DNA from: Bacteroidales bacterium
GTDB taxonomy: Bacteria; Bacteroidota; Bacteroidia; Bacteroidales; FEN-979
Assembly: GCA_028706295.1 (NCBI GenBank)
Contig: JAQWBQ010000001.1
Coordinates: 62,001 to 126,000, forward strand
Direction: 5' to 3'
Length of the DNA stretch: 64,000 nt
Positions within the stretch are counted from its first letter, which is position 1. Every line of letters begins with the position of its first letter. Below are positions 888 to 57,625 of the stretch, one piece after another. The notes under the pieces were generated by a model. It saw only the letters and a list, made by a program, of their open reading frames with translations, had not been told where the DNA came from and searched no databases. Position numbers and translations under genes: made by a program.

Positions 888-1365
888 AGATTACAGAGAA
901 ATCCTTATTAATGGAAAAGGAGAATCAGTGAAACTGGAACGATTTATTGAAGAGATCTGTGATTTCTATAATATTAACAATGAATATTTTGGCAATATTC
1001 TTTTGGCGACAACTGAAGCTGTAGAAATCCTGTTCTCCATTAATAATGAAGAAAAAAAAGCAATCTCAATTCAATTTGACCGAAATGCAAAAGGATTGGT
1101 TTTCAAGATAAGGTTAAAAATAGATGGAGAAGAATCGGAAAGAGAGGAAGATATTTTCGACCGAGAAGTTCGAAAACACAAGCTTGCAAAAGACATTTTT
1201 ATTATAAAGTCACTAACTGATGAAATTACTATTTCTGTTAATGCAAAGAGCATCATATTAGTTTTCTATGTATCAAGTATGAATTACGAAAAATCTCTGT
1301 TCAGAATAAATAAGCTTAAAGAATACTGGCATAGTGAGGTTGATGTCAAGCAAAAAAAATTATGA
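880..1365 (+). CDS. Small GHKL/anti-sigma-type ATP-binding protein
   Basis: A 161-residue cytoplasmic protein. An in-frame TTG exists at 859, but the ATG at 880 is preferred because it overlaps the upstream stop only slightly, as is usual in tight operons. The segment LLATTEAVEILFSINN matches the N-box region of RsbW/SpoIIAB-type ATPases (helix with a conserved Glu and Asn near the ATP site). The glycine-rich G-box is poorly kept. It sits between a DUF4175-like gene and ybeY, overlapping ybeY by four bases (ATGA), so the three are probably cotranslated. It could be a serine kinase, an anti-sigma factor or a degenerate ATPase. No partner anti-anti-sigma gene is visible. Confidence 0.6.
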   Translation: MNKDYREILINGKGESVKLERFIEEICDFYNINNEYFGNILLATTEAVEILFSINNEEKKAISIQFDRNAKGLVFKIRLKIDGEESEREEDIFDREVRKHKLAKDIFIIKSLTDEITISVNAKSIILVFYVSSMNYEKSLFRINKLKEYWHSEVDVKQKKL

Positions 1366-1781
1366 GTGCTTTCAATTTTTTTAAAGAGGATATTGAGTTT
1401 TTACTAAAGGAAAAGACAAGGTTAAGGGGTTGGTATTTAAAAATATTATCAGAGGAAGGAAGAATAGCAGAGAACCTGAATTTTATATTTTGTAGTGACG
1501 CTTATTTACTGAAGATAAACAAGAAATACCTGAATAAGAATGATTACACGGACGTAATTGCTTTTCAATATAACCTAAAGTCGGAGCCGATAACAGGCGA
1601 TATATATATTAGCATACCTAGAATAAGAGAAAACGCTGCAATCTTTAAAACCTCACCTTCAGCTGAACTTAAAAGAGTTATGGCTCATGGGATTTTGCAT
1701 TTATTGGGATATAAGGATAAAACAAAAAAGGAGAAAAAAATCATTCGCGAGAAAGAGAACTATTATTTAAATAAATTCTGA
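1362..1781 (+). CDS. ybeY: Endoribonuclease YbeY, 16S rRNA maturation
   Basis: A 139-residue metal-dependent endoribonuclease of the UPF0054 family, which acts in 16S rRNA 3' end maturation and ribosome quality control. The signature is MAHGILHLLGYKD near residues 107-119: the two His of HGxLHL are kept, while the third His of the classical motif is replaced by Asp, as I recall for Bacteroidota homologues. The N-terminal half carries the expected NKKYLNKNDYTDVIAF segment ending in the conserved Thr-Asp-Val. The start overlaps the upstream stop by four bases. It is shorter than the E. coli protein (about 155 residues) but complete. Confidence 0.92.
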   Translation: MSAFNFFKEDIEFLLKEKTRLRGWYLKILSEEGRIAENLNFIFCSDAYLLKINKKYLNKNDYTDVIAFQYNLKSEPITGDIYISIPRIRENAAIFKTSPSAELKRVMAHGILHLLGYKDKTKKEKKIIREKENYYLNKF

Positions 1782-1797
1782 ACTTTTATTAGAACCT

Positions 1798-1813
1798 TGT
1801 TTCACGTGAAACG
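1798..1813. promoter_or_regulatory. parS-like ParB binding site upstream of mnmG
   Basis: TGTTTCACGTGAAACG matches the widely conserved chromosomal parS consensus TGTTNCACGTGAAACA at all but the last base. The inner 14 bases (1799-1812) are a perfect palindrome. The site ends five bases before the mnmG start codon. A second site lies just after mnmG. parS sites usually cluster near the replication origin; no parA or parB gene is in the window. Confidence 0.85.
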
Positions 1814-1818
1814 GCAAA

Positions 1819-3687
1819 ATGGATCGTTATGAGATTATAGTAATAGGCGCTGGTCATGCTGGATGTGAAGCAGCAATGGCTGCAGCAAACCTTGGCTCGA
1901 CGGTATTACTGATAACGATGAATATGTCGAACATGGCTCAAATGTCATGTAATCCGTCTATTGGAGGAGTTGCAAAAGGTCAGATTATAAGAGAAATCGA
2001 TGCCTTGGGGGGATATTCAGGAATTGTTAGTGACCGGTCAATGATTCAGTTCAGGATGTTGAACAAATCGAAAGGACCGGCTATGTGGAGTCCACGGTCA
2101 CAGAATGACCGATATCTGTTTTCAAGTGAATGGCGGAAATTTCTGGAGAATAACAAAAGAATATTTTTTTGGCAGGACTTTGTTGAGGAAATACTGATAG
2201 TTCAAGGTAGGGTAATTGGTGTTAAGACCGGTTTGGGAATGTCATTCCAATGTAAATCGGTTATTCTTTCAACGGGAACCTTTTTAAATGGTATTATACA
2301 TATAGGTGAAAAAAGCTTCAGTGGGGGAAGATTAGGCGAACGGGCTGCGAGATTTTTAACAGAGCAATTAGTCAAGATTGGCTTTGAATCAAAAAGAATG
2401 AAAACCGGAACACCGGTAAGAGTAGATGGTCGCACATTGGATTTTTCAAAAATGGAAAAGCAACCGGGAGATGAAAATCCCGGAAAATTTTCTTTTACGG
2501 ACACCAGTACCTTGAAAACTCAAAAAGACTGTTTTCTTACTTACACGAGTAAAAAAGTACACGAAGTTCTAAGATCAGGATTTAAAAAATCTCCATTATT
2601 TTCTGGAAGAATAAAAGGGAAGGGACCGCGTTATTGCCCATCAATTGAAGATAAAATTGAAAGATTTGCTTCTAAGGATAGTCATCAGTTATTTATTGAA
2701 CCGGAAGGATGGGAAACTGTTGAATATTATGTAAATGGATTTTCATCCTCGCTGCCAGAAGACGTACAATTTAAAGCATTAAGACTGATTCCCGGGTTTA
2801 AAGATGCTAAATTTTTCAGGCCTGGTTATGCCATTGAATACGATTATTTCCCTCCGGATCAGTTGTCCTCAACTTTAGAAACCAAGCTAATTAAGAATTT
2901 ATTTTTTGCAGGACAGATTAACGGGACAACAGGGTACGAAGAGGCCGCTGCACAAGGCCTTGTTGCGGGAATTAATGCCCATCAAAGTATTAATGAAAAA
3001 GAACCATTTAGCCTTCAAAGATCAGATGCTTATATTGGCGTTCTAATAGATGACCTGATAACAAAGGGAACTGAAGAGCCCTATAGAATGTTTACATCAA
3101 GAGCGGAATTTCGAATTCTTTTAAGACAAGATAATGCAGACGAACGACTTACTCCGGTAGGTTATACCCTTGGCCTGATTTCAAATGATAGATTTTTAAA
3201 AACTCAGAATAAGTACAATCAGGTAAATATGCTGATCAATTTTTTACAGAAATCAAGTGTCTCACCTGAGATCGTCAATCAATATCTGATATCCGTGGGG
3301 TCGAAGGAAATTTTACAGAAACAAAGGATCTCCTCTATTCTGCTCAGGCCAAATATTACCTTAACGGGACTCATAGCGAACCTAGACTTACTCTCGAATT
3401 ATATTAAAATCAATAAAGAAATTGATAGAGAAATTATTGAAGAAGCGGAATTAAAAATTAAATATCAGTCGTATATTCTTAAAGAACAAGAACTGGCCTT
3501 GAAAATGATAGCATTAGAAAATCAGAAAATCCCAGAGAACTTTGATTATCATCGTCTGAATTCTATTTCTTCAGAAGCCAGGGAAAAGTTATCAAAACTG
3601 AAACCGGCAACGGTAGGTCAGGCGGGAAGAATTAGTGGCGTTTCTCCAAGTGACATTTCAGTACTCATTGTTTATCTTAATTATTAA
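1819..3687 (+). CDS. mnmG: tRNA U34 carboxymethylaminomethyl modification enzyme MnmG (GidA)
   Basis: A 622-residue FAD enzyme that with MnmE installs the cmnm5 group on wobble uridine 34 of certain tRNAs. The N-terminal Rossmann motif GAGHAGCEAAMAAA (residues 10-23) binds FAD. Also present are the family signatures CNPSIGG, GTPVR and PGYAIEYDYF, the segment TGYEEAAAQG near residue 375, and a C-terminal helical domain with VGQAGRISGVSP. Length matches the family. The gene is bracketed by two parS-like sites, one ending five bases before its ATG and one beginning directly after its stop. mnmG is often found near the origin in bacteria. No mnmE (trmE) or rsmG is adjacent. Confidence 0.97.
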   Translation: MDRYEIIVIGAGHAGCEAAMAAANLGSTVLLITMNMSNMAQMSCNPSIGGVAKGQIIREIDALGGYSGIVSDRSMIQFRMLNKSKGPAMWSPRSQNDRYLFSSEWRKFLENNKRIFFWQDFVEEILIVQGRVIGVKTGLGMSFQCKSVILSTGTFLNGIIHIGEKSFSGGRLGERAARFLTEQLVKIGFESKRMKTGTPVRVDGRTLDFSKMEKQPGDENPGKFSFTDTSTLKTQKDCFLTYTSKKVHEVLRSGFKKSPLFSGRIKGKGPRYCPSIEDKIERFASKDSHQLFIEPEGWETVEYYVNGFSSSLPEDVQFKALRLIPGFKDAKFFRPGYAIEYDYFPPDQLSSTLETKLIKNLFFAGQINGTTGYEEAAAQGLVAGINAHQSINEKEPFSLQRSDAYIGVLIDDLITKGTEEPYRMFTSRAEFRILLRQDNADERLTPVGYTLGLISNDRFLKTQNKYNQVNMLINFLQKSSVSPEIVNQYLISVGSKEILQKQRISSILLRPNITLTGLIANLDLLSNYIKINKEIDREIIEEAELKIKYQSYILKEQELALKMIALENQKIPENFDYHRLNSISSEAREKLSKLKPATVGQAGRISGVSPSDISVLIVYLNY

Positions 3688-3703
3688 TGTTCCACGTGAA
3701 ACG
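3688..3703. promoter_or_regulatory. parS-like ParB binding site downstream of mnmG
   Basis: TGTTCCACGTGAAACG begins at the base after the mnmG stop codon and ends seven bases before the next ATG. It matches the parS consensus with C at the variable position and differs at the last base, exactly as the site at 1798 does. The two sites are 1,890 bases apart, in the same orientation, and both continue with the base G. Confidence 0.85.
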
Positions 3704-3710
3704 GTAATCG

Positions 3711-4601
3711 ATGTCAGAAATTCTTGAACAGTGTCCAATTTGTTCCTCACGGAATTTTAATCCCTATATGGAAATAACAGATTGGTTTTTCTCGGGAGAA
3801 AAGTTTTCATTGGTAAAATGCGTGAAATGTGGATTAATATTTGTAAACCCACGACCCTTGGTTGAAAAAATAGGAATTTATTACGCCTCTGATGAATATT
3901 TATCCCATGGGTTGCGCAAAAAAAGATTCATTGACAGTATCTATGGGCTAATAAGAAAACAGTCAATCAGAATTAAATTCAATTTGGTCAGGTCATTTAT
4001 ATCTGGATCCAATATACTCGATATTGGTTGTGGAACTGGTGAATTTTTAACGTATTGTAAAGAGCATGGATTCAAAGCTTGGGGTGTAGAACCCAATGAA
4101 CGCGGTAGAAATTTTGCCTTACAAAATAATTTAAATGTTGCTGATTCTTTGCATAATCTGGATATTTTACAGGGAAGTATCGACTGTATTACCATGTGGC
4201 ACGTACTTGAACACATTCACGACCTCAATGAAACCATGGGGGAAATCCATGATTTATTGTCTGATGATGGAATTCTTGTTATTGCCGTGCCCAATTGCAA
4301 TTCTCTTGACGCCCGATATTTTAAAGAATACTGGGCGGCTTATGATGTCCCGCGACATCTTTACCATTTTTCCCAAGAGACCTTCTCACAACTTGCCATA
4401 AAATTTGGGTACGATATCATTAAGGTGATTCCTCAGAAATTTGATGCCTATTATGTCTCGATGTTAAGCATCAAATATAAGTATAATAAAATGCGCTCCT
4501 GGCTATTTCCGATCTATGGCTTCTGGTTTAATCTAAGGTCTCATTACAATGAAAATAGATATTCCAGCCTGATTTTTGTACTGAATAAGAAAAAAAGCTA
4601 A
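3711..4601 (+). CDS. Class I SAM-dependent methyltransferase with N-terminal zinc ribbon
   Basis: A 296-residue protein. Two CxxC pairs in the first 40 residues (CPIC and CVKC) form a zinc-ribbon-like module. Motif I, ILDIGCGTGEFL (about residues 100-111), is the SAM-binding loop. CITMWHVLEHIHDLNE is the typical motif IV/post-motif of the Methyltransf_23 group. The C-terminal third is basic and aromatic. Proteins with this arrangement often act in sugar, lipid or cell-surface polymer biosynthesis, but the substrate cannot be read from the sequence. The gene follows mnmG with only a parS-like site between and is followed by a large histidine kinase. No neighbouring pathway points to a substrate. 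Confidence 0.8.
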   Translation: MSEILEQCPICSSRNFNPYMEITDWFFSGEKFSLVKCVKCGLIFVNPRPLVEKIGIYYASDEYLSHGLRKKRFIDSIYGLIRKQSIRIKFNLVRSFISGSNILDIGCGTGEFLTYCKEHGFKAWGVEPNERGRNFALQNNLNVADSLHNLDILQGSIDCITMWHVLEHIHDLNETMGEIHDLLSDDGILVIAVPNCNSLDARYFKEYWAAYDVPRHLYHFSQETFSQLAIKFGYDIIKVIPQKFDAYYVSMLSIKYKYNKMRSWLFPIYGFWFNLRSHYNENRYSSLIFVLNKKKS

Positions 4602-8575: not shown

Positions 8576-9026
8576 CTGCTGTTTTATTTTCCTGATTATC
8601 ATTTCAGGATGTGGGAACCCCGAACGAACAGACTGGTATCATCCGTTTTCAAACAGAACCTGGGAACGGTTTGAAATATTACAATTTGAAATTCCAATTA
8701 GCCAATTAGAAAAAAATTATGATATTATATTGTTTGCATATTTATCAAATGCATTTGAATTTAAGGACCTTGCATTTAACATGGTAATGAAGACCCCATC
8801 GGGAGAAGAAAGAATCAACGAGTACCAATTGCCCTTTCGAACGGAAAACGGCGATTTAATTAAAGCCTGTACCAATGATTCTTGTTTTACTCAAGTCATT
8901 CTTAAACAACAACTTAGAATTAATAAAGCGGGAAATCTTCTTTTGGAAATAGAGAACCTTACACCCCGTTTACTGACCGAAGGCGTTTGTGGTGTCGGAA
9001 TCAGGGTTACTCCATCGGACGATTAA
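8541..9026 (+). CDS. gldH: GldH-like lipoprotein
   Basis: A 161-residue exported lipoprotein: a hydrophobic N-terminal stretch ends in a lipobox (IISGC) with the lipidated Cys near residue 24. The remainder has the spacing of the GldH family: an early Trp/Phe segment, an Asn-Tyr-Asp-Ile strand, a Pro-x-Gly-Glu turn, and a final EIENL...GVGIRV strand. GldH is needed in Flavobacterium for gliding and is linked to T9SS function; non-gliding Bacteroidota also carry homologues. Two ATG codons are possible (8541 or 8547). It overlaps the kinase gene at its start and the convergent flavokinase gene at its end. Family placement is by pattern only. Confidence 0.55.
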   Translation: MKMRRIVVRALNCCFIFLIIISGCGNPERTDWYHPFSNRTWERFEILQFEIPISQLEKNYDIILFAYLSNAFEFKDLAFNMVMKTPSGEERINEYQLPFRTENGDLIKACTNDSCFTQVILKQQLRINKAGNLLLEIENLTPRLLTEGVCGVGIRVTPSDD

Positions 9027-9467
9027 TTCTTTAGCGATTTTTCGGTCTTGATTTAATTGATCTATCAGGAGATTTACTTTGGGGAATTTGATTTCATCTC
9101 TGATCCGATCGACAAATGATACTTTTACGATTTTTTCGTAAATGTCTTGTTGGAAGTCGAAAATATGAACTTCGATTGTCAGAACAGTACCATTGAAAGT
9201 AGGTCGGTAACCAATATTTGCCATTGCGGGATATTCATGCTCTTCTATCTGAGTCAATACGGCATAAACCCCAGTCGCCGGGAGTACATAACAGTTATTA
9301 TCAATTTCAAGATTGGCTGTAGGAAATCCAATTTTTCTTCCCAAATGGTTTCCATGGATAACTTTACCCGAAATGGTATAGAACGATCCCAGCAACAGTT
9401 TTGCTTTTCTTACATTGCCGGAAGTGAGTAATTTTAAAAGTGAAGGTTTAACGGTTTTCTTTCTCAT
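8970..9467 (-). CDS. Stand-alone riboflavin kinase domain (RibF C-terminal half)
   Basis: A 165-residue protein that matches only the flavokinase half of the bifunctional RibF, which converts riboflavin to FMN with ATP. The signature GKVIHGNHLGRKIGFPTANL (about residues 33-52) and the segments ANIGYRPTFNG and IEVHIFDFQQDIY are intact, including the catalytic Glu of the last one. The usual N-terminal FAD synthetase domain (about 180 residues with HxGH) is absent: the protein begins in what is normally the interdomain linker. There is no matching reading frame upstream, where another gene starts 23 bases away. It is the last gene of the electron-transfer cluster and overlaps the convergent gldH-like gene by 57 bases. 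It may be a true monofunctional kinase or a decayed ribF copy. Confidence 0.85.
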   Translation of the reverse strand: MRKKTVKPSLLKLLTSGNVRKAKLLLGSFYTISGKVIHGNHLGRKIGFPTANLEIDNNCYVLPATGVYAVLTQIEEHEYPAMANIGYRPTFNGTVLTIEVHIFDFQQDIYEKIVKVSFVDRIRDEIKFPKVNLLIDQLNQDRKIAKELIVRWSNPDSDTTNAFGQ

Positions 9468-9490
9468 GCTGGTACAAAACTACGGAGAAA

Positions 9491-10399
9491 TTAAACCGTC
9501 GGACTGATCGCCTCTCGCTTTTTATTGTGGCGTTTGATCATGACCAGTTCATAAATGGCATAAATGTAATGTGCCCAAACCCCGACAAGTAAAATGACCA
9601 GGGTAATAATCATCCAGAGAGGAGCAATTGGAGTCCACAATTCACGTGAAGGTCCTTCAGCATAAATATAATGTTTAGGGATCCCCCAATTTATTGAATT
9701 CATTACCTGAACTGTTCCAAACCGATCATGCTCCTCTATTTTAGAAATAACGGTGAGATTTCCTAATGAATCACCAATTAGTTCTTTTGGGAACTCCATT
9801 GTACCCACTCCCAAATCATCAAGTGTTATTTCTCCAATTTTAAGCAAACTGAAAAGTCTTGGAATATAAATGTTAACAGTAACCTGGGGAACAGGAATTT
9901 CTTTTCCTGTGGTACTCTTTTCTGTTGCCGATATCCTTAAAACACGAAGTGAATCCTCCATGATGAACGATTGTTTGAGGCTGGCAGGTTTTGCGTTAAA
10001 TTCAGCGGTTGCTGCCGGATAGATCCCCGTAGCACGAAATTCAACCGTATAGTGAATGATATCCTCTTGGTCTCCTGTAAGGTTTGATAATGAAATGGTT
10101 ATTTTGGAATTCCCTTCAGAATCAGTTTTGGCCTGACCGGCAAGACGTTTATTTAAACCGTCGGAAGTATAAAAGAAGAGCGATGCATTTTCCAGATATT
10201 TGATGGTCATATCGCGTTTAACACTGAGTGTCGCCGACAATGTTACAGAATCATTAGCGTTACAAACGTAATTTAGGGAGAGTCTTGTTTCCGGAACAGT
10301 CAGTGAATCTGTTGTTTTTTCCGAAAATGAATCGGGCACAAAAGCTAGAGAAAATAAAAGTACCACAGAAATCCTGTACGGTGAAATATGTTTTTTCAT
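9491..10399 (-). CDS. Unknown exported protein with Ig-like repeats and C-terminal membrane anchor
   Basis: A 302-residue protein with no family I can name. It has a signal peptide (MKKHISPYRISVVLLFSLAF), then about 220 residues rich in beta strand that look like two immunoglobulin-like or fibronectin-like units, then a single membrane helix (WMIITLVILLVGVWAHYIY) and a short basic cytoplasmic tail. No heme or iron-sulfur motif is present. A start at the ATG of 10399 is preferred over a TTG nine bases upstream. It lies 25 bases downstream of the nrfD-type gene and 23 bases upstream of the flavokinase gene, so it is probably cotranscribed. It may be an assembly or docking subunit of the membrane redox complex; this is inference from position only. 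Confidence 0.7.
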   Translation of the reverse strand: MKKHISPYRISVVLLFSLAFVPDSFSEKTTDSLTVPETRLSLNYVCNANDSVTLSATLSVKRDMTIKYLENASLFFYTSDGLNKRLAGQAKTDSEGNSKITISLSNLTGDQEDIIHYTVEFRATGIYPAATAEFNAKPASLKQSFIMEDSLRVLRISATEKSTTGKEIPVPQVTVNIYIPRLFSLLKIGEITLDDLGVGTMEFPKELIGDSLGNLTVISKIEEHDRFGTVQVMNSINWGIPKHYIYAEGPSRELWTPIAPLWMIITLVILLVGVWAHYIYAIYELVMIKRHNKKREAISPTV

Positions 10400-10424
10400 A
10401 TGGATCAAATATCAAATATTTTAT

Positions 10425-11744
10425 TTATGCTGAAATCCCCTCTTTTTTATCCTCTAAATCATGATGAAATCCCGATATGGGAACAATCGGGATTAACTTT
10501 GAAGCAAGGGTAAAGAGTAGACTAAACACGGCAACTCCGGCAGCTGTAAGACTCCATTCAATCCATGTGGCACCGTAATTCAACCACTCCGGCCTGGAAT
10601 CCTGTATCGGTAAATAAGGCGACTCTAAAGTTGGTACAACAATCAGATACCTGTTTAGCCAGAGTGCAATGATAACAACAACCGAGGTGATCGTAATATT
10701 GGTTATAGTCCGCAATTTTGGTATCCCAACCACGATGAGAGGCAACAGTACTCCAATATAGTTAGAAATAATGAAATACCAATAGTACTCATTAAACAAT
10801 AAACGAATAAGTAACTCATCATTTTTTTCTGAACCGTACCATTTTGTAAGATAGTCGGAAAAAGTAAAGTACCCGTAAAATGCGGCTAAAACCAACATAA
10901 TCACTCCAACGGAAACAAAATGCTTTTTTGTAATATAATTCTCAAGATGGTAAATTTTGCGAAAGAGCCACATGGATAAAATTAGTACGGCGCTTCCCGA
11001 GTATACGGCGGCAATTACGAAATAGGGACCGAAAATAGTACTATGCCAACCTGGTTGTAGGGTGACACTAAAAATCCAGGCCAGAACCGAATATACAATA
11101 ATGGCAATTGCAATGATCATAGCAGCCATAACATCTGTGGCGCGGTTCAATCGGAGTTGTTGTTCGGGGGTTCCCGTATAGCCCAGTGCGAGAATCTTAT
11201 AGAGCTTTTTTCTCCATTTTGAAAGTTTGATGATATCATCGTCCCGAAGGGTCGCCAGGTCCCTTAATACAGCCAGGTACAGAAAAATCAAGCAGCCAAA
11301 TATATCCGTGGAGATCGCGATTACATCCCAGGTAATCGGTGATTGGATCCTTCCGAAAATTGCAAGATAAGGAAGTTTGTCAAGTCGGCCAATACATAAC
11401 AGAATAAAGCAAGGGCCAATCAACAAAGAAATGATAGTAATAAATTCTGCCATCCTGATAATGGGTTTACGCCAGGAAGACCGAAATAAATGTAAGGTGC
11501 CCGAAATTAATGCTCCGGCGTAACTTATACCCATAAAGAAAATAAAATTTACAATATATATGCCCCAAACGACATTATCTCGCATTCCTGTGACCTCGTG
11601 GCCCCGTAGGACCTGAAAGAAAAATGCAACAATGCCCAGACAGATCACGGCAAGAAGAAACGAAATCCAGGCATAGCCCCAAGGACCAGTTCGGTTAAGC
11701 TGGGGGGCAAATTCTTTCAATAATATATTTTTATCGCTTTCCAT
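10425..11744 (-). CDS. NrfD/PsrC-type quinol-interacting membrane subunit
   Basis: A 439-residue polytopic membrane protein with about ten helices, of the NrfD/PsrC/ActC superfamily. These subunits exchange electrons between the quinone pool and a partner iron-sulfur subunit. The N-terminal part (GYAWISFLLAVICLG, then the VWGIYIVNFIFFMGISYAG helix) and the segment LFRSSWRKPIIRMAEF between helices resemble the ActC/HmcC branch. The start codon is three bases downstream of the ferredoxin subunit stop, the tight coupling typical for FeS-NrfD pairs. No molybdopterin catalytic subunit is nearby, so this module more likely links quinol to cytochromes, as in the Hmc, Qrc or alternative complex III families, than to a Mo enzyme. 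Confidence 0.88.
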   Translation of the reverse strand: MESDKNILLKEFAPQLNRTGPWGYAWISFLLAVICLGIVAFFFQVLRGHEVTGMRDNVVWGIYIVNFIFFMGISYAGALISGTLHLFRSSWRKPIIRMAEFITIISLLIGPCFILLCIGRLDKLPYLAIFGRIQSPITWDVIAISTDIFGCLIFLYLAVLRDLATLRDDDIIKLSKWRKKLYKILALGYTGTPEQQLRLNRATDVMAAMIIAIAIIVYSVLAWIFSVTLQPGWHSTIFGPYFVIAAVYSGSAVLILSMWLFRKIYHLENYITKKHFVSVGVIMLVLAAFYGYFTFSDYLTKWYGSEKNDELLIRLLFNEYYWYFIISNYIGVLLPLIVVGIPKLRTITNITITSVVVIIALWLNRYLIVVPTLESPYLPIQDSRPEWLNYGATWIEWSLTAAGVAVFSLLFTLASKLIPIVPISGFHHDLEDKKEGISA

Positions 11745-11746
11745 AA

Positions 11747-12703
11747 TCAGGGTTTGTGTTTTTTGACATAGGGGGTCTCATTATATCTGTTTTTAATCTC
11801 CTCATTCAGATCACCAAATCCAAGGCTTACATCATATTGACGGTCGACGGGGGGCAGGTAATATACACAAGGCCGGGTACCCAAATTTTCAAGGTAACGA
11901 TAACCGGCCCGGTCTTTTATCAGTTGGCTGAACTGAAACGTATCGGTTCCATTGGTAACGGTGTCTTCATCGATGTCGCCGAAATAGATAACTCCCATCG
12001 GGCAGGCTGAAACGCAGTAAGGGACTTTCCCTACCCTGATAAGATCGGGGCAGAAATCACATTTTGAGACCGTTCCTTCTTTTCCAGGACTGCCGGCCTC
12101 AGGAGAGTAGGGTTCTTTGTCTTCGTCAAATTCAGGGTAATGTTTCCATGCAAAAACACGTGTAGAATACGGGCAACCGGTCATACAAAATTTACATCCT
12201 ATGCAGCGTTCATTGTCAACCAGGACGATACCGTCACTTCTTTTATAGGTGGCGCCAACGGGACAAACACTGACGCAAAGCGGGTTATCGCAATGAAAAC
12301 ATGGTTTGGGGAACCAGTAGGGGGATGTTTTATCAGAATCCTGTAGTAAATAAATTTTCATAAATTCCTGTCCTTTCGGCAAGTGATGCCCTTTCTGGCA
12401 AGCCTCAACACATTTTCTGGCATTTTTACATTTAGCCAGGTCAATCACCATTACAAATTTTCTTCCGGGAATTCCGTAATGGGATTCCTCTCTGGAAACG
12501 CGAGGAAGTTTTAACTGTGCTTTATCGACCTCCCTAATTTGGCCGTCCGTGGTCATTACTTTTACTTTTTCTACCGATTCCGAAGTTCGGGCATCGAGAA
12601 GCGATGAAATCAAACCGGTTCCAGCGGCTATTCCGGCACCGGCGACCAATCCCTGTTTCAGAAATTCCCGACGAGTCGATTTATTTTTTGATTGTTCCTT
12701 CAC
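11747..12703 (-). CDS. Tat-exported 4Fe-4S ferredoxin subunit (PsrB/HmcB-like)
   Basis: A 318-residue iron-sulfur protein beginning at a GTG codon. The N-terminus has a twin-arginine signal (STRREFLKQG followed by an Ala/Gly-rich hydrophobic stretch), so the folded protein is sent to the periplasmic side. Four Cys groups suit four 4Fe-4S clusters: CKNARKCVEAC, CFHCDNPLCVSVCP, CIGCKFCMTGCP, and CDFC with CVSACP. It is the electron-relay partner of the NrfD-type subunit whose gene follows after two bases, and it follows the cytochrome b gene by eleven. Similar subunits occur in polysulfide reductase, the Nrf, Hmc and Qrc complexes. The electron partner here is probably the heptaheme cytochrome. 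Confidence 0.9.
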   Translation of the reverse strand: MKEQSKNKSTRREFLKQGLVAGAGIAAGTGLISSLLDARTSESVEKVKVMTTDGQIREVDKAQLKLPRVSREESHYGIPGRKFVMVIDLAKCKNARKCVEACQKGHHLPKGQEFMKIYLLQDSDKTSPYWFPKPCFHCDNPLCVSVCPVGATYKRSDGIVLVDNERCIGCKFCMTGCPYSTRVFAWKHYPEFDEDKEPYSPEAGSPGKEGTVSKCDFCPDLIRVGKVPYCVSACPMGVIYFGDIDEDTVTNGTDTFQFSQLIKDRAGYRYLENLGTRPCVYYLPPVDRQYDVSLGFGDLNEEIKNRYNETPYVKKHKP

Positions 12704-12714
12704 GATTTGGTTAT

Positions 12715-13341
12715 TTAATGTGATTCATGAAATCCATTGATCATACTTTTAAAATTACTGGCCGGGGTTTTGCCAATGGTGCAGAAATAGATATGTATGC
12801 ACATAAACAAGGTGATGAAAAAACCCACAGTCACATGCAGAAAATCAGTCAATTCCAGCCCACTAGCCCCTAAAAGACTTTTCAATGTCATTTCGGGATA
12901 CAACAAACCAAACCCGGAAAGAACAATCAACGGAACAAGTAAGTACATCGTGGCAACGTATGTGAATTGCTGTAATGGATTAAACTTCTGATCCGGGGTT
13001 ATTGGGAATGGAGGATTCTCCTTTTTAAAAATACCAATTGTATAATAGCGAATCTGAATGATCAATCTTTTAAAAAACCCCCTTACAGGCATGATATAAT
13101 GATGTCCATTTGTTGTGAACAGATTACCGATAAAAAAAGCAATATAGTTTATCGCTAAAAGAACCCCTGCAATATTATGTACAGAGATAGCCGTTTTGAA
13201 TTTCACCACCACACTTGGATTTGAGAACTGAATGCTAAGTCCGGTAATTATAAGTATCAGGCACAGAACAGCATTAATCATATGCCATATCCTGATCCAT
13301 AAAGGATATAAATAAAGTCGTTCAGATGAATGGTTATTCAT
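12715..13341 (-). CDS. Di-heme cytochrome b membrane subunit
   Basis: A 208-residue membrane protein with four helices, of the cytochrome b561/hydrogenase-cytochrome b type. Candidate heme ligands are His in RIWHMINA (helix 1), in ISVHNIAG (helix 2), in FLHVTVGFF and in CIHIYFCTIG (helix 4). The end, TPASNFKSMINGFHE, is the ending usual for cytochrome b subunits of Ni-Fe hydrogenases and thiosulfate reductases. It sits seven bases downstream of the heptaheme cytochrome gene. Together they look like a quinol-to-cytochrome c transfer unit. Having both a cytochrome b and an NrfD subunit in one cluster recalls the Hmc complex of sulfate reducers (family comparison, not proof). Confidence 0.85.
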   Translation of the reverse strand: MNNHSSERLYLYPLWIRIWHMINAVLCLILIITGLSIQFSNPSVVVKFKTAISVHNIAGVLLAINYIAFFIGNLFTTNGHHYIMPVRGFFKRLIIQIRYYTIGIFKKENPPFPITPDQKFNPLQQFTYVATMYLLVPLIVLSGFGLLYPEMTLKSLLGASGLELTDFLHVTVGFFITLFMCIHIYFCTIGKTPASNFKSMINGFHESH

Positions 13342-13348
13342 TGTCTAA

Positions 13349-14368
13349 TTATTTGTTTTTAATTCGTAAAAATACATGGATACAAATGGCAATTACAGTC
13401 AATCCCATGATAAGAAAACTTAATAAATTCAAGCTGTTATTACGATCCGGCCCAATTGAGGCTGTTTCACTGAAAAACAGTCCTTTTATAATACCTACCT
13501 TCTCGATATTCTGTTTGATTTGATGTTTGTAAAGGGACGCATACAGAATCGAATTTTTTGAGTGACAGGATTCACACTTTTTAACGGCTTGATTTTTTGG
13601 AGTAATAAAGTGTGCAACGATCAAAGTGTCTTCGTTTCGGGTATGACATTCAATGCAGCGGACATTGGTAAAGTGGGAAGATTGATTTGGAAGCCAATCA
13701 TGTTTTTGAAGAAGGTTCGGATTGGGTTTATTGGATAATAACTGATAATTGTTATTATCTCCATGACAATTCAGGCAAATCAGATTGTCATAGGTAATTG
13801 TTTCTTTTAAATTTTCAGTAGTCCGTGCATTTATTTTATAGGTATGCGGATCGTGACACATCCAACAAGTAAATTCTTCGCTGTGTTTTTGTGAATGGAC
13901 ACTGGCCATAAAAGCAGTGTCGATAGTTTCAAATTGGAATTTGGCATATTTTTCATCGCCACCATGACAATCGACACAAGTGGCAATTGCTTCCATTCGT
14001 AAATCACCGGAATGGGGAAATGAAATGTAATCTTCGGAATGACAATCCGTACATTTGAATTCACGATGGTTGGAGGCATAAAAATCATCTCTATTCACAA
14101 TCGCTTCAGCATACATTCGTTTGACTATGATTTTTCCATTTTCTTTATTGGTATATGAGTACTTGGACTGGCCATGACATTTCAGGCACATCTCATTTTC
14201 TGCCGAATTTTTAAAGTTTGAAAATCCCTTCCTCGATATATTTTGTTTGGGTGGGTTCGAAATGGACTGAATCAATGGGGAGTCATTAAGTACAGTATAT
14301 GCCAAAATAAAGAGTAATAAGAGAACCAGCACGATCCAGGCAGGTCTGACATTTGCTTCGTAAGTCAT
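13349..14368 (-). CDS. Heptaheme membrane-anchored c-type cytochrome
   Basis: A 339-residue protein with seven CxxCH heme-binding motifs (CLKCH, CTDCH, CVDCH, CWMCH, CLNCH, CIECH, CESCH) between an N-terminal helix (PAWIVLVLLLLFILAY) and a C-terminal helix (LLSFLIMGLTVIAICIHVF), so the heme domain is periplasmic and held at both ends. The ATG at 14368 is preferred; a GTG at 14431 would add 21 residues and lies inside a hairpin. Hemes are spaced irregularly, as in multiheme c3/c7-type proteins. It follows the monoheme cytochrome gene and precedes the cytochrome b gene. It probably collects electrons from the membrane subunits. No catalytic motif such as CxxCK is seen. Confidence 0.88.
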   Translation of the reverse strand: MTYEANVRPAWIVLVLLLLFILAYTVLNDSPLIQSISNPPKQNISRKGFSNFKNSAENEMCLKCHGQSKYSYTNKENGKIIVKRMYAEAIVNRDDFYASNHREFKCTDCHSEDYISFPHSGDLRMEAIATCVDCHGGDEKYAKFQFETIDTAFMASVHSQKHSEEFTCWMCHDPHTYKINARTTENLKETITYDNLICLNCHGDNNNYQLLSNKPNPNLLQKHDWLPNQSSHFTNVRCIECHTRNEDTLIVAHFITPKNQAVKKCESCHSKNSILYASLYKHQIKQNIEKVGIIKGLFFSETASIGPDRNNSLNLLSFLIMGLTVIAICIHVFLRIKNK

Positions 14369-14404
14369 AAAGTGAATAGTTTGAATAATTAAATCAGGAA
14401 TGAC

Positions 14405-14441
14405 AAAGGGTGTCGGGGCTATTTGACCCACAACACCCTTT
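14405..14441 (-). terminator. Intra-cluster hairpin between monoheme and heptaheme cytochrome genes
   Basis: AAAGGGTGT (14405-14413) pairs perfectly with ACACCCTTT (14433-14441) across a 19-base loop that can pair further (GGG with CCC). It lies downstream of the monoheme cytochrome stop on the minus strand. No long T tract follows, so it may act as a processing or attenuation hairpin, not a full terminator. Confidence 0.55.
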
Positions 14442-14468
14442 ATTGAAAATCAGTCATATAGCATGACA

Positions 14469-14885
14469 TCATTTTTTCATAGTACGCATGTAAGCAACCA
14501 ACGCCCAACGATCATTAGCATCAGGGATTTTCTTTTCATATGCCGGCATTTCCTCACGACCCTTATTGGTACGATAAAACAGTTCACCATCAGTAGCTGA
14601 CTGGAATGAAGCGGTGGAAAAATCACCTGGAAAGGTCTTCAAAGAAGCAGCTTTTGGTCCATCGCCCAATCCTTTGCTGCCATGGCATGATTTGCAGTGT
14701 TTGGCCCAGAGTTCTTTCCCGACTGCCAGATCAGCTTTCCCAGGAGCCTTAATGTTTTTATCCTTGTCCGGGACTGGCCATGGTTTTGGTTTTAACTGTT
14801 GTGCTGTTGCCAAATTACCGGCCAGTAAAAACACCGAGATAATAACCGGAATTAATACGGTAGTGATTTTTTTTGTTGTTTTCAT
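14469..14885 (-). CDS. Periplasmic monoheme cytochrome c
   Basis: A 138-residue class I cytochrome c. A signal peptide (about residues 1-28, ending near ATAQQ) is followed by one heme motif, CKSCHGSKGLGDGPKA, and a downstream Met in EEMPAYEKKIPD that can serve as the second axial ligand. The C-terminal helix DRWALVAYMRTMKK is typical of the fold. The ATG at 14885 is chosen over a TTG six bases upstream. In this cluster it would be the soluble shuttle between the inner-membrane complex and the outer-membrane components, comparable to ActE in alternative complex III. That role is inferred from order only. Confidence 0.88.
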   Translation of the reverse strand: MKTTKKITTVLIPVIISVFLLAGNLATAQQLKPKPWPVPDKDKNIKAPGKADLAVGKELWAKHCKSCHGSKGLGDGPKAASLKTFPGDFSTASFQSATDGELFYRTNKGREEMPAYEKKIPDANDRWALVAYMRTMKK

Positions 14886-14913
14886 ATGCAATTGTTTTTA
14901 GAGAATGATAAAA

Positions 14914-15855
14914 TTAAAAATTCCACAATCGTGTAAGGTTAAATCCGATCAGGATAAAACCATTAAAGAAATTATTTTCATTATTCATAACCATTTCTGA
15001 AGGAATGATCCCTTGAGCGGCAGATAAGTACAAATGAAATGCATGTGTGCTTGTTGAAACCTCCCATCCCAAAGAGATATTTGGGTAGGGGGCTTTGTTT
15101 TTCGGAATTTCCAGCCAATGATTTGGGTACTTAACAACGAATGCCGGATCATAATTAACAATGACGGGCTGTTGATAGGATAACACAATGGAAGACTGCG
15201 GGCTCAGCTTAAAACGTGCAAGCAAGGCAAAAGCAAGCGCGTCGTTCATTGCCGTGGAGTCAACAGTACGATCAACTTTATTAAAATGGGTATAGCTTAG
15301 TCCGAGCTGGGCTGAGAAATAGTTACAAAATCGTCTGGCAAAAAGGAATTCATGATAGAATGAAAACCGGTCGACGAATTTATAACCGGCACCATAAAAA
15401 TCCTTTCCCAAGGCGTTCAAAGCATAATCACCATAAACAGAAATAGTGAGTGGGAATCCTCCTTGTCGTTGGCGCAGAAAAGTATATTTGATCTGCAGAT
15501 CCTGTAAACGGTTATTTTTTGTAGTTCCAAGACCAACAAGGAGGTTATTTGTAATACTGAAGTTCAATCCGAGTCGAATATTTGAAGCCCCCCAAATACC
15601 GAAGAGATCACTCCAATTACTTTGAATGGTACCAAACCTGTGTTGAAGAACGAATTCCAGTGTCTTGGCAGGCTGAACCACAACAGTCTGAAGGTCCATA
15701 CATATACCGCTTTCGAATGGTGCTTTTGCGAGTGGTTTCTTTGTTAATTCAGGTTCTACCGGAATAGAATCCTGTGCCTGATTGACCCCAACGGTGGTTA
15801 ATGTGAAAACCAGTATTAGCAGAATCAGTTTGATAGGATGATAAATTTTGTGCAT
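14914..15855 (-). CDS. DUF5777-family outer-membrane beta-barrel protein
   Basis: A 313-residue exported protein with a signal peptide ending near VNQAQ. The mature part is a series of amphipathic strands: LEFVLQHRFG, NIRLGLNFSITNNLLVGLG, LTISVYGDYAL, FFNGFILIGFNLTRLWNF. It ends in Phe, the usual signal for outer-membrane insertion. This fits the Bacteroidota family DUF5777, which I recall mostly beside c-type cytochrome genes. It lies between genes for a lipoprotein with a CX4CH motif and a periplasmic monoheme cytochrome. The arrangement resembles porin-cytochrome conduits, where a barrel holds hemes across the outer membrane, but no sequence relation to MtrB or PioB is visible. Confidence 0.8.
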   Translation of the reverse strand: MHKIYHPIKLILLILVFTLTTVGVNQAQDSIPVEPELTKKPLAKAPFESGICMDLQTVVVQPAKTLEFVLQHRFGTIQSNWSDLFGIWGASNIRLGLNFSITNNLLVGLGTTKNNRLQDLQIKYTFLRQRQGGFPLTISVYGDYALNALGKDFYGAGYKFVDRFSFYHEFLFARRFCNYFSAQLGLSYTHFNKVDRTVDSTAMNDALAFALLARFKLSPQSSIVLSYQQPVIVNYDPAFVVKYPNHWLEIPKNKAPYPNISLGWEVSTSTHAFHLYLSAAQGIIPSEMVMNNENNFFNGFILIGFNLTRLWNF

Positions 15856-15859
15856 ATTT

Positions 15860-15878
15860 ATTAATATTAAATATTAAT
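15860..15878. promoter_or_regulatory. AT-rich dyad upstream of the DUF5777 gene
   Basis: ATTAATATT (15860-15868), one base, then AATATTAAT (15870-15878) form a perfect interrupted palindrome five bases before the DUF5777 start codon. It could be an operator or a weak hairpin near the ribosome landing site. Such AT-only dyads also arise by chance. Confidence 0.35.
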
Positions 15879-15892
15879 GATTCTTCAGTGGA

Positions 15893-16279
15893 TTAATTAT
15901 TCTTGGCTCCTTCTTCAATCCAATACTTTATGGTTGAATTGTCAGTAGGATTGCCATAGGAAGCCATTACGCCACCTGAGAGCAGGCATGTATACAAAAT
16001 ACTTTCTTCTGGTCGGAATGGAACGACCATTTTGTTCTCCATTAAGCTTTGATAGGATTTACCAGATCTGAGGTCCGGGGCGACATTGCCATTATGGCAT
16101 CCAGCACGGGCGCAAGTAAGATTGTCAAATATTGGTTGGATTTTTAGTGAGAAAGAGGTGGAATCGCCTGGTGGGGGAGGAGGTGGCACATCGGGGGTTA
16201 TAATGGCGTATTCACAAGAGACAAGGATAAACAAACCAATGAGCACAAACGCAAGATTAAATAATGTTTTCTTTTGCAT
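15893..16279 (-). CDS. Small lipoprotein with a PSCyt1-like cytochrome domain
   Basis: A 128-residue lipoprotein. The lipobox VLIGLFILVSC gives a lipidated Cys near residue 22, followed by a proline-rich spacer with six consecutive Pro. The domain that follows reads IQPIFDNLTCARAGCHNG, then APDLRSGKSYQSL, then IKYWIEEGAKN, the layout of planctomycete-type cytochrome c domains. The heme motif is CX4CH instead of CxxCH. A later Met (GGVMASYG) could be the distal ligand. The start is set at the ATG of 16279 because the upstream codons extend past the signal. It follows the hexaheme lipoprotein gene after a terminator-like hairpin and may relay electrons at the outer membrane. Confidence 0.78.
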   Translation of the reverse strand: MQKKTLFNLAFVLIGLFILVSCEYAIITPDVPPPPPPGDSTSFSLKIQPIFDNLTCARAGCHNGNVAPDLRSGKSYQSLMENKMVVPFRPEESILYTCLLSGGVMASYGNPTDNSTIKYWIEEGAKNN

Positions 16280-16352
16280 ACGGAGAAGATTTGTATTGAT
16301 TGAAATAAAAATAATGTGCATAAGCATTTGAAGTTCAAATTGACATTAAGAT

Positions 16353-16387
16353 AAAAGGCTTCAAGAGAAGGACCCCTGAAGCCTTTT
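16353..16387 (-). terminator. Strong hairpin after the hexaheme lipoprotein gene
   Basis: AAAAGGCTTCA (16353-16363) pairs perfectly with TGAAGCCTTTT (16377-16387) around a 13-base loop. It lies between the stop of the hexaheme lipoprotein (16404) and the start of the next gene (16279). On the minus strand the stem ends in a short T run, as for an intrinsic terminator. It would make the first gene the most expressed one of the cluster. Confidence 0.75.
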
Positions 16388-16403
16388 TATCCATTATAAT
16401 ACC

Positions 16404-17492
16404 CTAATATCCAAGGCTCGCCATATAATCAATGCCAGACTGAAGCATGTCGTAGGTATACAGGTAGTTGTGAATTCCATTGCTTTTATCGTAGTAAGCA
16501 AGCTTATAATTCCAGAATACAGCTAATTGTTTTTGTTTGTACCATTTACCAGTTTTCAGATTATTTGTATTGGTATCAAGCATTCCTGCTACGGCCAATT
16601 TGACCTTCAAGGTTTGGATCATACCGGCAATTTCCGTTTCCTTGCCATTGACGTCAAATGTATTGTTTCCGAGGGAGGAGTGGCATCCCGCTGATTTGCA
16701 ACTGACATTGTTTTTAATTCCTTCTTCTTCATTCGACATCCAGAGGGAATGGCCGCCGACCAGGGCTCCCTGGGCTTGTGCCTGATGACAAGTGGCACAT
16801 GACAATGCATCCTTATGATTTGTCGACCTGAATGCGGATGTTCCAATCTCAAATGCACCCTTAGCGGCGAAAACGACACCTGCCGCTCCATAATGCGGGC
16901 CCCACCGACTGCTGGTAGGTTTCAATGAATCGGTGGTGCTGGAAGGGTTTGTCAGCCAGGGGGAAGTGGTTCGCGGTTGGTGACAACGTGCACAGAGATT
17001 AGATCCTCCACCATCAGCAGCAAGGTCGATCGTAACCGTTTTATCATAACGCGGATTGAATCCTGAAGTGACGATAAGTTCCCAGTCATTGTTTGTGTAA
17101 GTCTTATGGATTTTATGACAAGTGCGGCAATTGATTTGGGCTGCATCATAAACAGGGGCGGCAGTGGTATCGGAACCAGTTGAGGCGCACTCCACAAATC
17201 CCTGACTGGTATGACATGGAGCGCATGAGGTACGGGTGCCTTCAAATGTCGTTTCGCCCAATGAGTGGCGGGAAGCGTCATACTGGAAGATTTTCGTAAC
17301 CAGGCTGTCACTCCAGTTATGGCATTGGGTGCAAGTAGCATTAGCATCTTTACCATTGGTGCCATTAGTACCATCTTTTCCGGCCGGACCGGCTGGTCCC
17401 TGAGGACCTTCCTTCGTGCAGGCCGTGAAAATGATCATTACGACAGAGCACACCAATCCTGCAGTAAAAATCAATTGTTTAATTCTTTTCAT
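16404..17492 (-). CDS. Hexaheme lipoprotein cytochrome with collagen-like linker
   Basis: A 362-residue exported lipoprotein. The signal peptide ends in a lipobox with Cys25. Residues 29-49 are seven Gly-X-Y triplets (GPQ-GPA-GPA and so on), a collagen-like spacer. Then come five CxxCH motifs (CTQCH, CAPCH, CRTCH, CARCH, CATCH) and one CX4CH motif (CKSAGCH). The C-terminal part contains NYKLAYYDKSNGIHNYLY, similar to the heme-ligand region near the end of NrfA-like cytochromes. Acidic or polar residues right after Cys25 are compatible with surface export in Bacteroidota. It is the first gene of the cluster, behind FNR-type boxes. It may be the surface terminal of an electron conduit, or a reductase of unknown substrate. 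Confidence 0.85.
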   Translation of the reverse strand: MKRIKQLIFTAGLVCSVVMIIFTACTKEGPQGPAGPAGKDGTNGTNGKDANATCTQCHNWSDSLVTKIFQYDASRHSLGETTFEGTRTSCAPCHTSQGFVECASTGSDTTAAPVYDAAQINCRTCHKIHKTYTNNDWELIVTSGFNPRYDKTVTIDLAADGGGSNLCARCHQPRTTSPWLTNPSSTTDSLKPTSSRWGPHYGAAGVVFAAKGAFEIGTSAFRSTNHKDALSCATCHQAQAQGALVGGHSLWMSNEEEGIKNNVSCKSAGCHSSLGNNTFDVNGKETEIAGMIQTLKVKLAVAGMLDTNTNNLKTGKWYKQKQLAVFWNYKLAYYDKSNGIHNYLYTYDMLQSGIDYMASLGY

Positions 17493-17742: not shown

Positions 17743-18438
17743 TCACCCTTTTTCACTAATATGGCGTAGTTGTTTGATATTCAGTATTTCAAGATGATTT
17801 CCATGAAGCGTTAACACACCCTCTTCCTTAAATTCTTTTAAAATCCGTATAGCACTTTCTTTTGACATTCCAGAGAGGTCAGCGAGATCTTGCCTGGTAA
17901 TTGACAATTCAAAAGGATTTTGGCAATAGATTTTTTCGGACAGATAAAAAAGCACATCAGCAATGCGACCGGGCATTTGCTTTTGAGTCAGACTGATCAC
18001 TTGTTCAAAATTGAAAATTGCCTGCAATGACACTCTTTTGATAAACTCATCAGCAAAGTCAGGGTTTTCCCGGATCAGTCTTTTAAATACATTTACATCG
18101 ATCAAACAGGCCGTGCAATCCTCAACGGCTGCCGCAGAATAATGATGCCGGTTGTCAACATATATTCCGGGTCCAAATATATAATCAACGGGTTTCACTA
18201 ATCCCAGGATTAGATTTTTACCATAACCTTCGATGTAAATCTTTACTAATCCTGATGTAATACAGACAAAATACGGAGAGGGGGTACCTTGTTTAAATAT
18301 GATTTCACCTGCCTTGTATACAACCTGAAACTTACTATTACTGATAATGTCAAGTTCGGGATGGCTAAGATGTTTAAATATGGATGATTTGCAATTACAA
18401 TCAACACAGTTTGAAGCAAATGTGTTTTTATTTACCAT
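17743..18438 (-). CDS. Crp/Fnr-family transcription regulator
   Basis: A 231-residue protein with an N-terminal cyclic-nucleotide-binding-type beta roll (about 30-140), a dimer helix, and a C-terminal winged helix (about 165-225) with ITRQDLADLSGMSKESAIRILKEF. The recognition helix keeps Glu and Arg at positions used by FNR and CRP to read TGA half-sites. Near the N-terminus three Cys (residues 11, 14, 16) form CVDCNC, which may bind an Fe-S cluster, though the spacing differs from E. coli FNR; other Cys occur in the beta roll. The gene lies directly upstream of the cytochrome cluster, and perfect FNR boxes lie in its own promoter and in that of the cluster. The signal could be oxygen, NO or redox state. 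Confidence 0.9.
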   Translation of the reverse strand: MVNKNTFASNCVDCNCKSSIFKHLSHPELDIISNSKFQVVYKAGEIIFKQGTPSPYFVCITSGLVKIYIEGYGKNLILGLVKPVDYIFGPGIYVDNRHHYSAAAVEDCTACLIDVNVFKRLIRENPDFADEFIKRVSLQAIFNFEQVISLTQKQMPGRIADVLFYLSEKIYCQNPFELSITRQDLADLSGMSKESAIRILKEFKEEGVLTLHGNHLEILNIKQLRHISEKG

Positions 18439-56917: not shown

Positions 56918-57499
56918 ATGAAGAAGATTTTCCTTTGGCTGGTCCCCCCTGAACAATGGAAGCCCACCGTCGCGGTCTTGCTGGGCATTTTTTTTGGCCT
57001 GGGGGCCTATGCCTTGTATATTTCAAGGGCTGTTTCCTATCTTTCCGATAATCCCGAAACCTGTATTAATTGCCATGTAATGAATCCCCAGTTCAATGAC
57101 TGGGCGCACAGTTCTCATCGCAATGTAGCGGTTTGCAACGATTGTCATGTTCCACACGACAATGTTTTCAACAAATATTGGTTCAAGGCGCAAGATGGAT
57201 TGCGGCATGCCACCATTTTTACATTACGAAACGAACCCAACGCTATTTACATCCGGGAGGCCGGGAAGAACGCGGTACAGGCAAACTGCATCAGGTGCCA
57301 TGAACGGGCTACCGGAATGCAGTTTTTGGGGTCCGTTCAGCCAGATTTTTCCAATCATCTTCAGCAACGGCGCTGTGCCGACTGCCATCGTGAAACGCCT
57401 CACAAAAGGGTAAACAGCATTGCCTCAACTCCCGGTGCGCTGGTAAAGACGAAGACGGAAAACCGGACAGCACGGGAGGATGAGAAGGACGATGAATGA
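56918..57499 (+). CDS. nrfH: Cytochrome c nitrite reductase membrane subunit NrfH
   Basis: A 193-residue tetraheme cytochrome of the NapC/NirT family that takes electrons from menaquinol and passes them to NrfA. An N-terminal helix (VAVLLGIFFGLGAYALYISR) anchors it. The four heme motifs are CINCH (followed by VMN, where the Met is the unusual ligand of heme 1), CNDCH, CIRCH and CADCH. Length is near that of known NrfH. It is followed by nrfA; both follow a Bacteroidota-type promoter. Confidence 0.96.
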   Translation: MKKIFLWLVPPEQWKPTVAVLLGIFFGLGAYALYISRAVSYLSDNPETCINCHVMNPQFNDWAHSSHRNVAVCNDCHVPHDNVFNKYWFKAQDGLRHATIFTLRNEPNAIYIREAGKNAVQANCIRCHERATGMQFLGSVQPDFSNHLQQRRCADCHRETPHKRVNSIASTPGALVKTKTENRTAREDEKDDE

Positions 57500-57625
57500 T
57501 TGCCTGCAATAATTGAATGATTCCGAAAGGGTTAAAATGATAAAGGCAGGTAGAAAATGGGTTTTCAGAATCCGATCACATGGAATTGTCAATGCACCTT
57601 AAAGAATAATCAAAATTCAATACAG

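Follow-up and report, generated by a model that had tools for sequence, protein, structure and literature searches.

The stretch of DNA analysed here, called the window, covers 64,000 nucleotides (positions 62,001 to 126,000 of the forward strand) of contig JAQWBQ010000001.1 from a Bacteroidales bacterium of the GTDB lineage FEN-979, and the subject of this study is a cluster of heme and membrane protein genes in it that includes an outer-membrane barrel of the family DUF5777. The source genome comprises 3.99 Mb in 149 contigs and is 95.6% complete. An earlier note on the same DNA had described ten consecutive genes on one strand at 8970-17492, and all ten open reading frames (ORFs) were found there on the minus strand, with short gaps between neighbours and 15 c-type heme motifs altogether. 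In the order of transcription, they encode a hexaheme outer-membrane lipoprotein (16404-17492; c6lipo in our scripts), a single-heme lipoprotein (15893-16327, start probably at about 16279), the DUF5777 barrel (14914-15855), a monoheme class I cytochrome c (14469-14891), a heptaheme cytochrome with an N-terminal and a C-terminal membrane helix (13349-14431, start probably at about 14368), a four-helix cytochrome b561-family subunit with conserved His (12715-13341), a ferredoxin subunit with several 4Fe-4S sites of the DsrO/NrfC type (11747-12703), an NrfD-type membrane subunit (10425-11744), an Ig-like protein with one C-terminal helix (9491-10408; IgTM in our scripts) and a stand-alone riboflavin kinase domain (8970-9467). 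The parts listed in the earlier inventory were thus all present, and it had left the flavokinase and the one-helix Ig-like protein unlisted.

Pfam recognised DUF5777 (E 3e-64), the monoheme cytochrome, the heptaheme cytochrome (multiheme c3/c7 type), the b561 subunit, the 4Fe-4S ferredoxin, NrfD and the flavokinase; in the hexaheme protein Cytochrome_C7 was just over the cut-off, and the label Ig-like is our own reading of a protein with no Pfam family above cut-off. The heme motifs were seven CXXCH in the heptaheme cytochrome, one in the monoheme, one CX4CH in the small lipoprotein, and five CXXCH plus one CX4CH in the hexaheme protein of the window and of the near-identical locus L032. Matches to PF14537 in the source genome were confined to the heptaheme gene and an NrfHA region; this family misses the hexaheme gene, so the inventory is partial. 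Upstream of the cluster, also on the minus strand, lies a Crp/Fnr-type regulator (17743-18438) with cNMP_binding and HTH_Crp_2 domains.

The heptaheme alignment was used to scan a named genome collection, which gave 158 relatives, and the best 80 were kept; the heptaheme gene is therefore present in the fetched loci by construction of the sample. The fractions given below rest on the 55 of these 80 loci in which the heptaheme gene is flanked by 5 kb or more on each side, the 25 loci with shorter flanks being excluded. Profile hidden Markov models (HMMs) of the genes were built from the window and 20 loci in which the cluster adjoins asd, some of which are the same contigs as loci counted here (L064, for example, is the same as L032). 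Since the asd-context loci share one chromosomal place and seeded the HMMs, only the 28 loci of other contexts count as independent context.

The results showed a conserved gene set. All 55 loci carried the b-cytochrome, 54 the barrel, likewise 54 the single-heme lipoprotein, 50 the monoheme cytochrome and 46 the hexaheme protein. A Crp gene stood no more than 9.5 kb from the heptaheme gene in 49, an ImcH-like protein was present in 13 and CcsBA cytochrome assembly in 12. The ferredoxin, NrfD and Ig-like genes behaved as a block, with all three in 35 loci and none in 20. For the 28 loci outside the asd context, the corresponding numbers were 28 (b-cytochrome), 27 (barrel), 27 (single-heme lipoprotein), 23 (monoheme), 22 (Crp), 19 (hexaheme) and 13 (NrfD block). 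Presence of ferredoxin, NrfD and hexaheme was called with score thresholds chosen after inspecting the score gaps; with weak paralogue matches included these three rise to 37, 36 and 47 of 55, and the other counts are unaffected. The check proposed earlier thus found DUF5777 together with the heme proteins in 54/55 loci, and the chain from quinol to outer membrane that the earlier note had postulated is supported by this conserved gene set: the cluster is a real, widely conserved quinol-to-outer-membrane chain.

DUF5777 was present in 41/43 genomes of the family and fell by score, as we read the list, into two paralogue groups, from which 20 places of the window's group and 12 of the other were fetched. 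Contig ends aside, the order asd, crp, hexaheme, single-heme, barrel, monoheme, heptaheme, b-cytochrome, ferredoxin, NrfD, Ig-like, flavokinase was kept across the 20 places, the exceptions being L047, which lacks the ferredoxin/NrfD/Ig block, and L043, where no heptaheme and b-cytochrome genes separate ferredoxin from monoheme. Of 295 genomes in a sample of the order, 65 contained the heptaheme protein at E <= 1e-40. A sample of 395 genomes from the phylum contained 24 with a heptaheme match at E <= 0.001; the source genome and one other scored below 1e-80, seven matches lay at about 1e-34 to 1e-37, and the remainder were weak. By title, all 80 loci were from metagenome-assembled genomes (MAGs), nearly all assigned to Bacteroidales, Bacteroidia, Bacteroidetes, Bacteroidota or a subgroup, and lakes and fens are among the places suggested by their isolate names (LacPavin, Loclat, Kiruna, fen_979). 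The record of L064 is titled Alphaproteobacteria, and its heptaheme protein is 98% identical to that of the window; the title is probably wrong.

The heptaheme cytochrome and the b-cytochrome look like a split quinol oxidase of the CbcL type, a likeness of architecture and not of compared CbcL sequences. Seven motif His, seven other His and one His of the C-terminal helix were invariant in 81/81 heptaheme rows, and in the b-cytochrome four His were conserved in 76 or 77 of 77 rows and a fifth in 75. Hydropathy indicated two membrane helices in the former and four in the latter, six in sum, and the two proteins co-varied (r 0.68). CbcL of Geobacter sulfurreducens (with MtoC/MtrH) likewise combines a periplasmic multiheme c part with a diheme b561-type membrane part and has six helices in all, the number given in excerpts of PMC6295460 and PMC9129911, whereas the pair in the window is encoded by two genes and has seven c-hemes against nine in CbcL. 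The top NCBIfam match of the b subunit was the thiosulfate reductase cytochrome B model PRK15006, with 196.9 bits against a cut-off of 204. A fusion of heptaheme and b561 parts into a single 554-amino-acid (aa) protein was found in L145, whose genome belongs to a different class of the same phylum; in that locus (1315-3816) the fused protein is followed by a multiheme protein whose match to an MtrC/MtrF-like domain is just under the cut-off. A 934-aa protein of L130 with 19 motifs was rejected as a substitute terminal cytochrome and is taken as a CbcL-like fusion, because it contains a b561 domain. In addition, a protein of about 500 aa recurred in relatives and was absent from the cluster of the window. 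It has three N-terminal helices, a NapC/NirT domain and seven heme motifs (helices and motifs in L088 and L137, domain in L088, L102 and L137), which is the architecture, rather than the sequence, given for ImcH in an excerpt of PMC6295460.

On the periplasmic side, the monoheme cytochrome conserved C66, C69, H70 and M115 in 72/72 rows, consistent with a His/Met class I cytochrome and a predicted periplasmic carrier. The DUF5777 barrel was modelled by AlphaFold2 with 12 strands, a prediction and not a solved structure. In the VIA lists, which re-examine Foldseek's own matches and from which absence means nothing, its best matches were FapF, KdgM, the COG4313 channel and NalP, all of which we take to be 12-stranded, and NanC was also similar. 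The calculated backbone diameter was 21-24 Å for the predicted barrel and 47-48 Å for 26 strands; by this prediction the barrel is too small to enclose a multiheme protein. In Pfam the barrel matched only DUF5777, and PF11854 (MtrB) had no match in the source genome (95.6% complete). The porin-cytochrome reading of the earlier note was thus not upheld, given the 12 strands of the model and the fact that the protein which constantly accompanies the barrel and co-varies with it is a lipoprotein with a single heme (partial Mantel r 0.71). An MtrAB-type conduit was rejected on the 12 predicted strands and the missing MtrB match, and an Mtr-type reading fails because the barrel is predicted too narrow for a multiheme protein. 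The cluster shares with the known porin-cytochrome conduits (MtrAB, PioAB and Geobacter Pcc) an outer-membrane barrel gene adjoining c-type cytochromes, and differs from them in the strand number, the single-heme partner and the lack of an MtrB match in the genome. H72 and H271 of the barrel were invariant in 76/76 rows despite the absence of a heme motif in this protein.

The single-heme lipoprotein had no Pfam family, and its NCBIfam match to the LIC11213 lipoprotein (35.1 bits) was below the cut-off of 100. Its motif was CX2CH in 54 of 72 rows, CX4CH in 11, CX1CH in 6 and CX3CH in 1; CX1CH (GCTCH) would be very unusual for covalent heme. The second DUF5777 cluster (L052-L063) consisted of a barrel, a mono- or diheme CXnCH lipoprotein, YceI and a tRNA_anti-like protein. 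The pairing of DUF5777 with a CXnCH lipoprotein was seen in 11/12 of these loci, and no quinol part occurred among their recurring genes.

Profile and fold comparisons grouped the hexaheme lipoprotein with OcwA, OmhA and NrfA, with OcwA and OmhA, which are surface reductases of Gram-positive bacteria, as the best matches, and an NrfA-like five-heme core followed by a C-terminal helix bundle was present in it. With OcwA of Thermincola potens and OmhA of Carboxydothermus ferrireducens it shares this C-terminal core and bundle, whereas it has six hemes instead of nine or eleven, and those two are cell-wall or S-layer proteins while the hexaheme protein, with its lipobox and GXY (collagen-like) linker, is a predicted diderm lipoprotein on a collagen-like tether. 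OcwA relatives in Gram-negative bacteria were already noted in an excerpt of PMC7829351. NrfA shares with it the fold, the order of hemes 2-5 and an invariant His. This residue, H200, aligns with a His that we take to line the active site of NrfA. In contrast to NrfA, the hexaheme protein has CXXCH at the CXXCK position in 64/65 rows (a gap in one), HQxR in place of the Tyr segment of NrfA, and one extra N-terminal heme. The protein was therefore rejected as an NrfA, and a genuine NrfHA pair, the only NrfA in the source genome, lies elsewhere in the window (56918-59140). The sixth motif was CX4CH in 40 and CX2CH in 25 of 65 rows, and the alignment of L040 shows CX5CH spacing. Since five invariant or nearly invariant non-motif His are available, together with H226 in 55/60 rows, all six hemes could be bis-His; the idea that one heme lacks a distal His was dropped when H226 was found. 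By its membership of the NrfA/OcwA superfamily, the hexaheme lipoprotein may itself be the terminal reductase. The earlier statement that no known terminal reductase is present was therefore too strong with regard to this protein.

The NrfD/ferredoxin/Ig-like block was rejected as the heart of the system, as it was missing whole in 20/55 loci. The ferredoxin conserved 15 Cys in 56/56 rows and has a Tat-type (twin-arginine) N terminus as judged by eye, and the closest solved chains of the NrfD subunit were NrfD/ActC of alternative complex III (E 4.6e-54). All NCBIfam scores were below their cut-offs, namely 77.9/350 for DsrP, 37/570 for QrcD, 172.1/200 for DsrO and 118.5/400 for QrcC. In place of the likeness to the Hmc, Qrc and alternative complex III families claimed earlier, the core quinol part is CbcL-like in architecture, and the NrfD and ferredoxin subunits are optional (35/55). 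Alternative complex III, DsrMKJOP and Qrc share these two types of subunit with the cluster, whereas the cluster has only those two. Of the alternative complex III set, presumably ActABCDEF, the ten genes included only the ActC-like NrfD and a separate ferredoxin. In five other loci (L120, L121, L123, L127 and L132), a tetraheme lipoprotein-like protein of 193 to 217 aa stands beside extra distant ferredoxin/NrfD homologues. The flavokinase was found in 27/27 loci of the asd context and in 0/28 elsewhere, and was rejected as a core gene.

The cluster spans of the 55 loci contained 17 unmatched ORFs of at least 150 aa, of which one or more members per cluster were submitted to Pfam. They comprised an S41 peptidase, a NAD-binding protein, an esterase, a HAD hydrolase, DUF2339, a further NrfD, a one-CXXCH protein with type IX secretion sorting, the CbcL-like fusion and the ImcH-like protein, the last being the one that recurs. 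No Mo enzyme or other recurring reductase was seen among these representatives. The absence of a Mo enzyme reported earlier for the cluster thus extends to the spans of its relatives, and a dedicated catalytic subunit, the finding that the earlier note said would speak against its conduit, did not recur there. Molybdopterin subunits had three matches in the source genome and none in the window. The sorted one-CXXCH protein, at 5182-5976 of L086 within the cluster, is predicted to be surface-bound.

Taken together, we propose a menaquinol-driven chain that ends at the hexaheme lipoprotein as outer-membrane terminal reductase, whose acceptor likely lies on the cell surface or outside it, with a probability of about 0.48. 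As judged from their architecture, the heptaheme and b-cytochromes would oxidise menaquinol as a split CbcL-type unit; where present, the NrfD/ferredoxin/Ig-like block would provide a second, optional quinol entry, and in some relatives an ImcH-type entry would stand in place of the NrfD block or besides it. The monoheme cytochrome would then ferry electrons over the periplasm to an outer-membrane receiving unit made up of the DUF5777 barrel and the single-heme lipoprotein, a pairing suggested by their co-variation. From there the electrons would reach the hexaheme protein on its collagen-like tether, to which the role of terminal reductase is assigned by kinship. A multiheme wire threaded through the barrel is predicted not to fit, so the putative crossing of the outer membrane would need either a single heme docked at the barrel or a small shuttle. 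Surface respiration is our first choice, at about even odds; its serious rival is a reductase that faces the periplasm, combined with a solute channel.

Several results weigh against the surface-directed chain. OcwA/OmhA and NrfA were tied in fold (Z within 1), NrfA was a close second in profile score (9.3e-10), and the Foldseek E-values of the hexaheme protein were weak (best 0.018); with such near-ties, kinship does not distinguish a mineral from a nitrite reductase. The candidate export signal, K-(D/E) at +2 to +4, occurred in 31/57 hexaheme proteins, compared with 9/75 single-heme lipoproteins and 2/20 and 4/18 others, in a scan whose lipobox rule is crude and in which a few starts were misread; it has a single acid, and the known optimum needs two. 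Co-variation of the hexaheme protein was weak with the barrel (r 0.14, p 0.024) and absent with the single-heme lipoprotein (r 0.05, p 0.21). In 9/55 loci no good hexaheme gene was found near the cluster, and when those nine genomes were searched whole, six had a hexaheme gene at E < 1e-50, one had a fragment and two had none. The distal heme ligand of the single-heme lipoprotein is not constant (Met in 46 and His in 21 of 72 aligned rows), no electron path is evident through the modelled 12-strand barrel, and no host among the 80 MAG records is known to be electroactive.

The rival is periplasmic respiration of a soluble acceptor, an oxyanion or similar, in which the hexaheme protein, though anchored in the outer membrane, would face the periplasm, the barrel would admit the acceptor, and no electron would cross the outer membrane. 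We consider this less likely than the surface-directed chain. In its favour are the resemblance of the barrel to the small-solute channels KdgM, NanC and COG4313, as well as to FapF, and the equal nearness of the hexaheme fold to nitrite reductases; moreover, a Capnocytophaga outer-membrane lipoprotein without an export signal remained inside, and the signal is incomplete here. However, the same genome already has the canonical NrfHA pair, the CXXCK heme and Tyr segment of NrfA are missing from the hexaheme alignments, and the pairing of DUF5777 with a heme lipoprotein in the YceI clusters is unexplained by a mere acceptor channel. The earlier note had set its conduit against a periplasmic reductase unrelated to the barrel; the NrfA/OcwA kinship touches that alternative, and the hexaheme protein may face either the periplasm or the outside.

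Two further explanations were weighed against the surface-directed chain. A flavin or other small carrier, reduced by periplasmic hemes, could cycle through the barrel, with the riboflavin kinase supplying flavin mononucleotide (FMN). The flavokinase of the cluster is an extra copy, because the genome has a second match at another place, within an open frame of 314 aa, and the copy in the cluster is kept throughout the asd context even where the NrfD block is gone; strong FMN binding by OcwA is described in an excerpt of PMC6703420. Its absence from all 28 loci of other contexts argues that it is not a core gene and may, as with asd, be just a neighbour on the chromosome, and the cytoplasm is the expected place of a flavokinase, so we hold this explanation to be improbable. 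Least credible is an inward chain passing electrons from reduced iron or a partner cell to quinone. Homologues of CbcL, MtoC and MtrH do occur in Fe(III) reducers and Fe(II) oxidisers alike, according to an excerpt of PMC6295460, but the same text ties ImcH so far to quinol oxidation only. The kinship of the hexaheme protein to terminal reductases also speaks against this direction, and in one group of loci acyl-CoA dehydrogenase (15/80 loci), electron transfer flavoprotein (8) and Fe-S proteins adjoin the cluster, which suggests that its electrons come from the oxidation of organic acids.

Should the chain indeed end at the cell surface, minerals, humics or partner cells would be respired by a large group of uncultured Bacteroidota, the DUF5777 barrel family would gain a role, and the final outer-membrane step would be new, the barrel being predicted too narrow for the usual route. 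If it is periplasmic instead, DUF5777, the heme lipoprotein and the hexaheme family would still share one testable function. A more specific version, which we regard as doubtful, is that the narrow 12-strand barrel and its docked single-heme lipoprotein pass electrons to an OcwA-like surface reductase without a multiheme wire, forming a third way across the outer membrane in about one fifth of the genomes of the order; as part of the same doubtful proposal, the docked pair would be the split counterpart of a barrel-with-one-heme design.

DUF5777 was named in no paper of the literature searched, and no description of the cluster was found in the literature on Bacteroidota porin-cytochrome/NrfD systems, Prolixibacter corrosion and multiheme proteins, ImcH/CbcL with a beta-barrel, or Bacteroidales iron reduction. 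An excerpt of PMC10504345 reports a Prolixibacteraceae MAG with "several possible pathways for EET" (extracellular electron transfer), and a figure legend there lists NrfD, 4Fe-4S and multiheme proteins; as far as this excerpt goes, these pathways may include relatives of the cluster. A Bacteroidetes MAG from an anode biofilm (Bacteroidetes_1), in an excerpt of PMC8258643, has a cluster of a barrel and six cytochromes. It resembles the present one in belonging to Bacteroidota, in combining a barrel with cytochromes and in being proposed there for extracellular electron transfer, and differs, by its description rather than by sequence, in having seven genes with six multiheme cytochromes.

Elsewhere in the window, a NorB-type nitric oxide reductase with a cytochrome c-like domain was found at 44413-46671, near a hemerythrin/PAS protein at 47072-48598.

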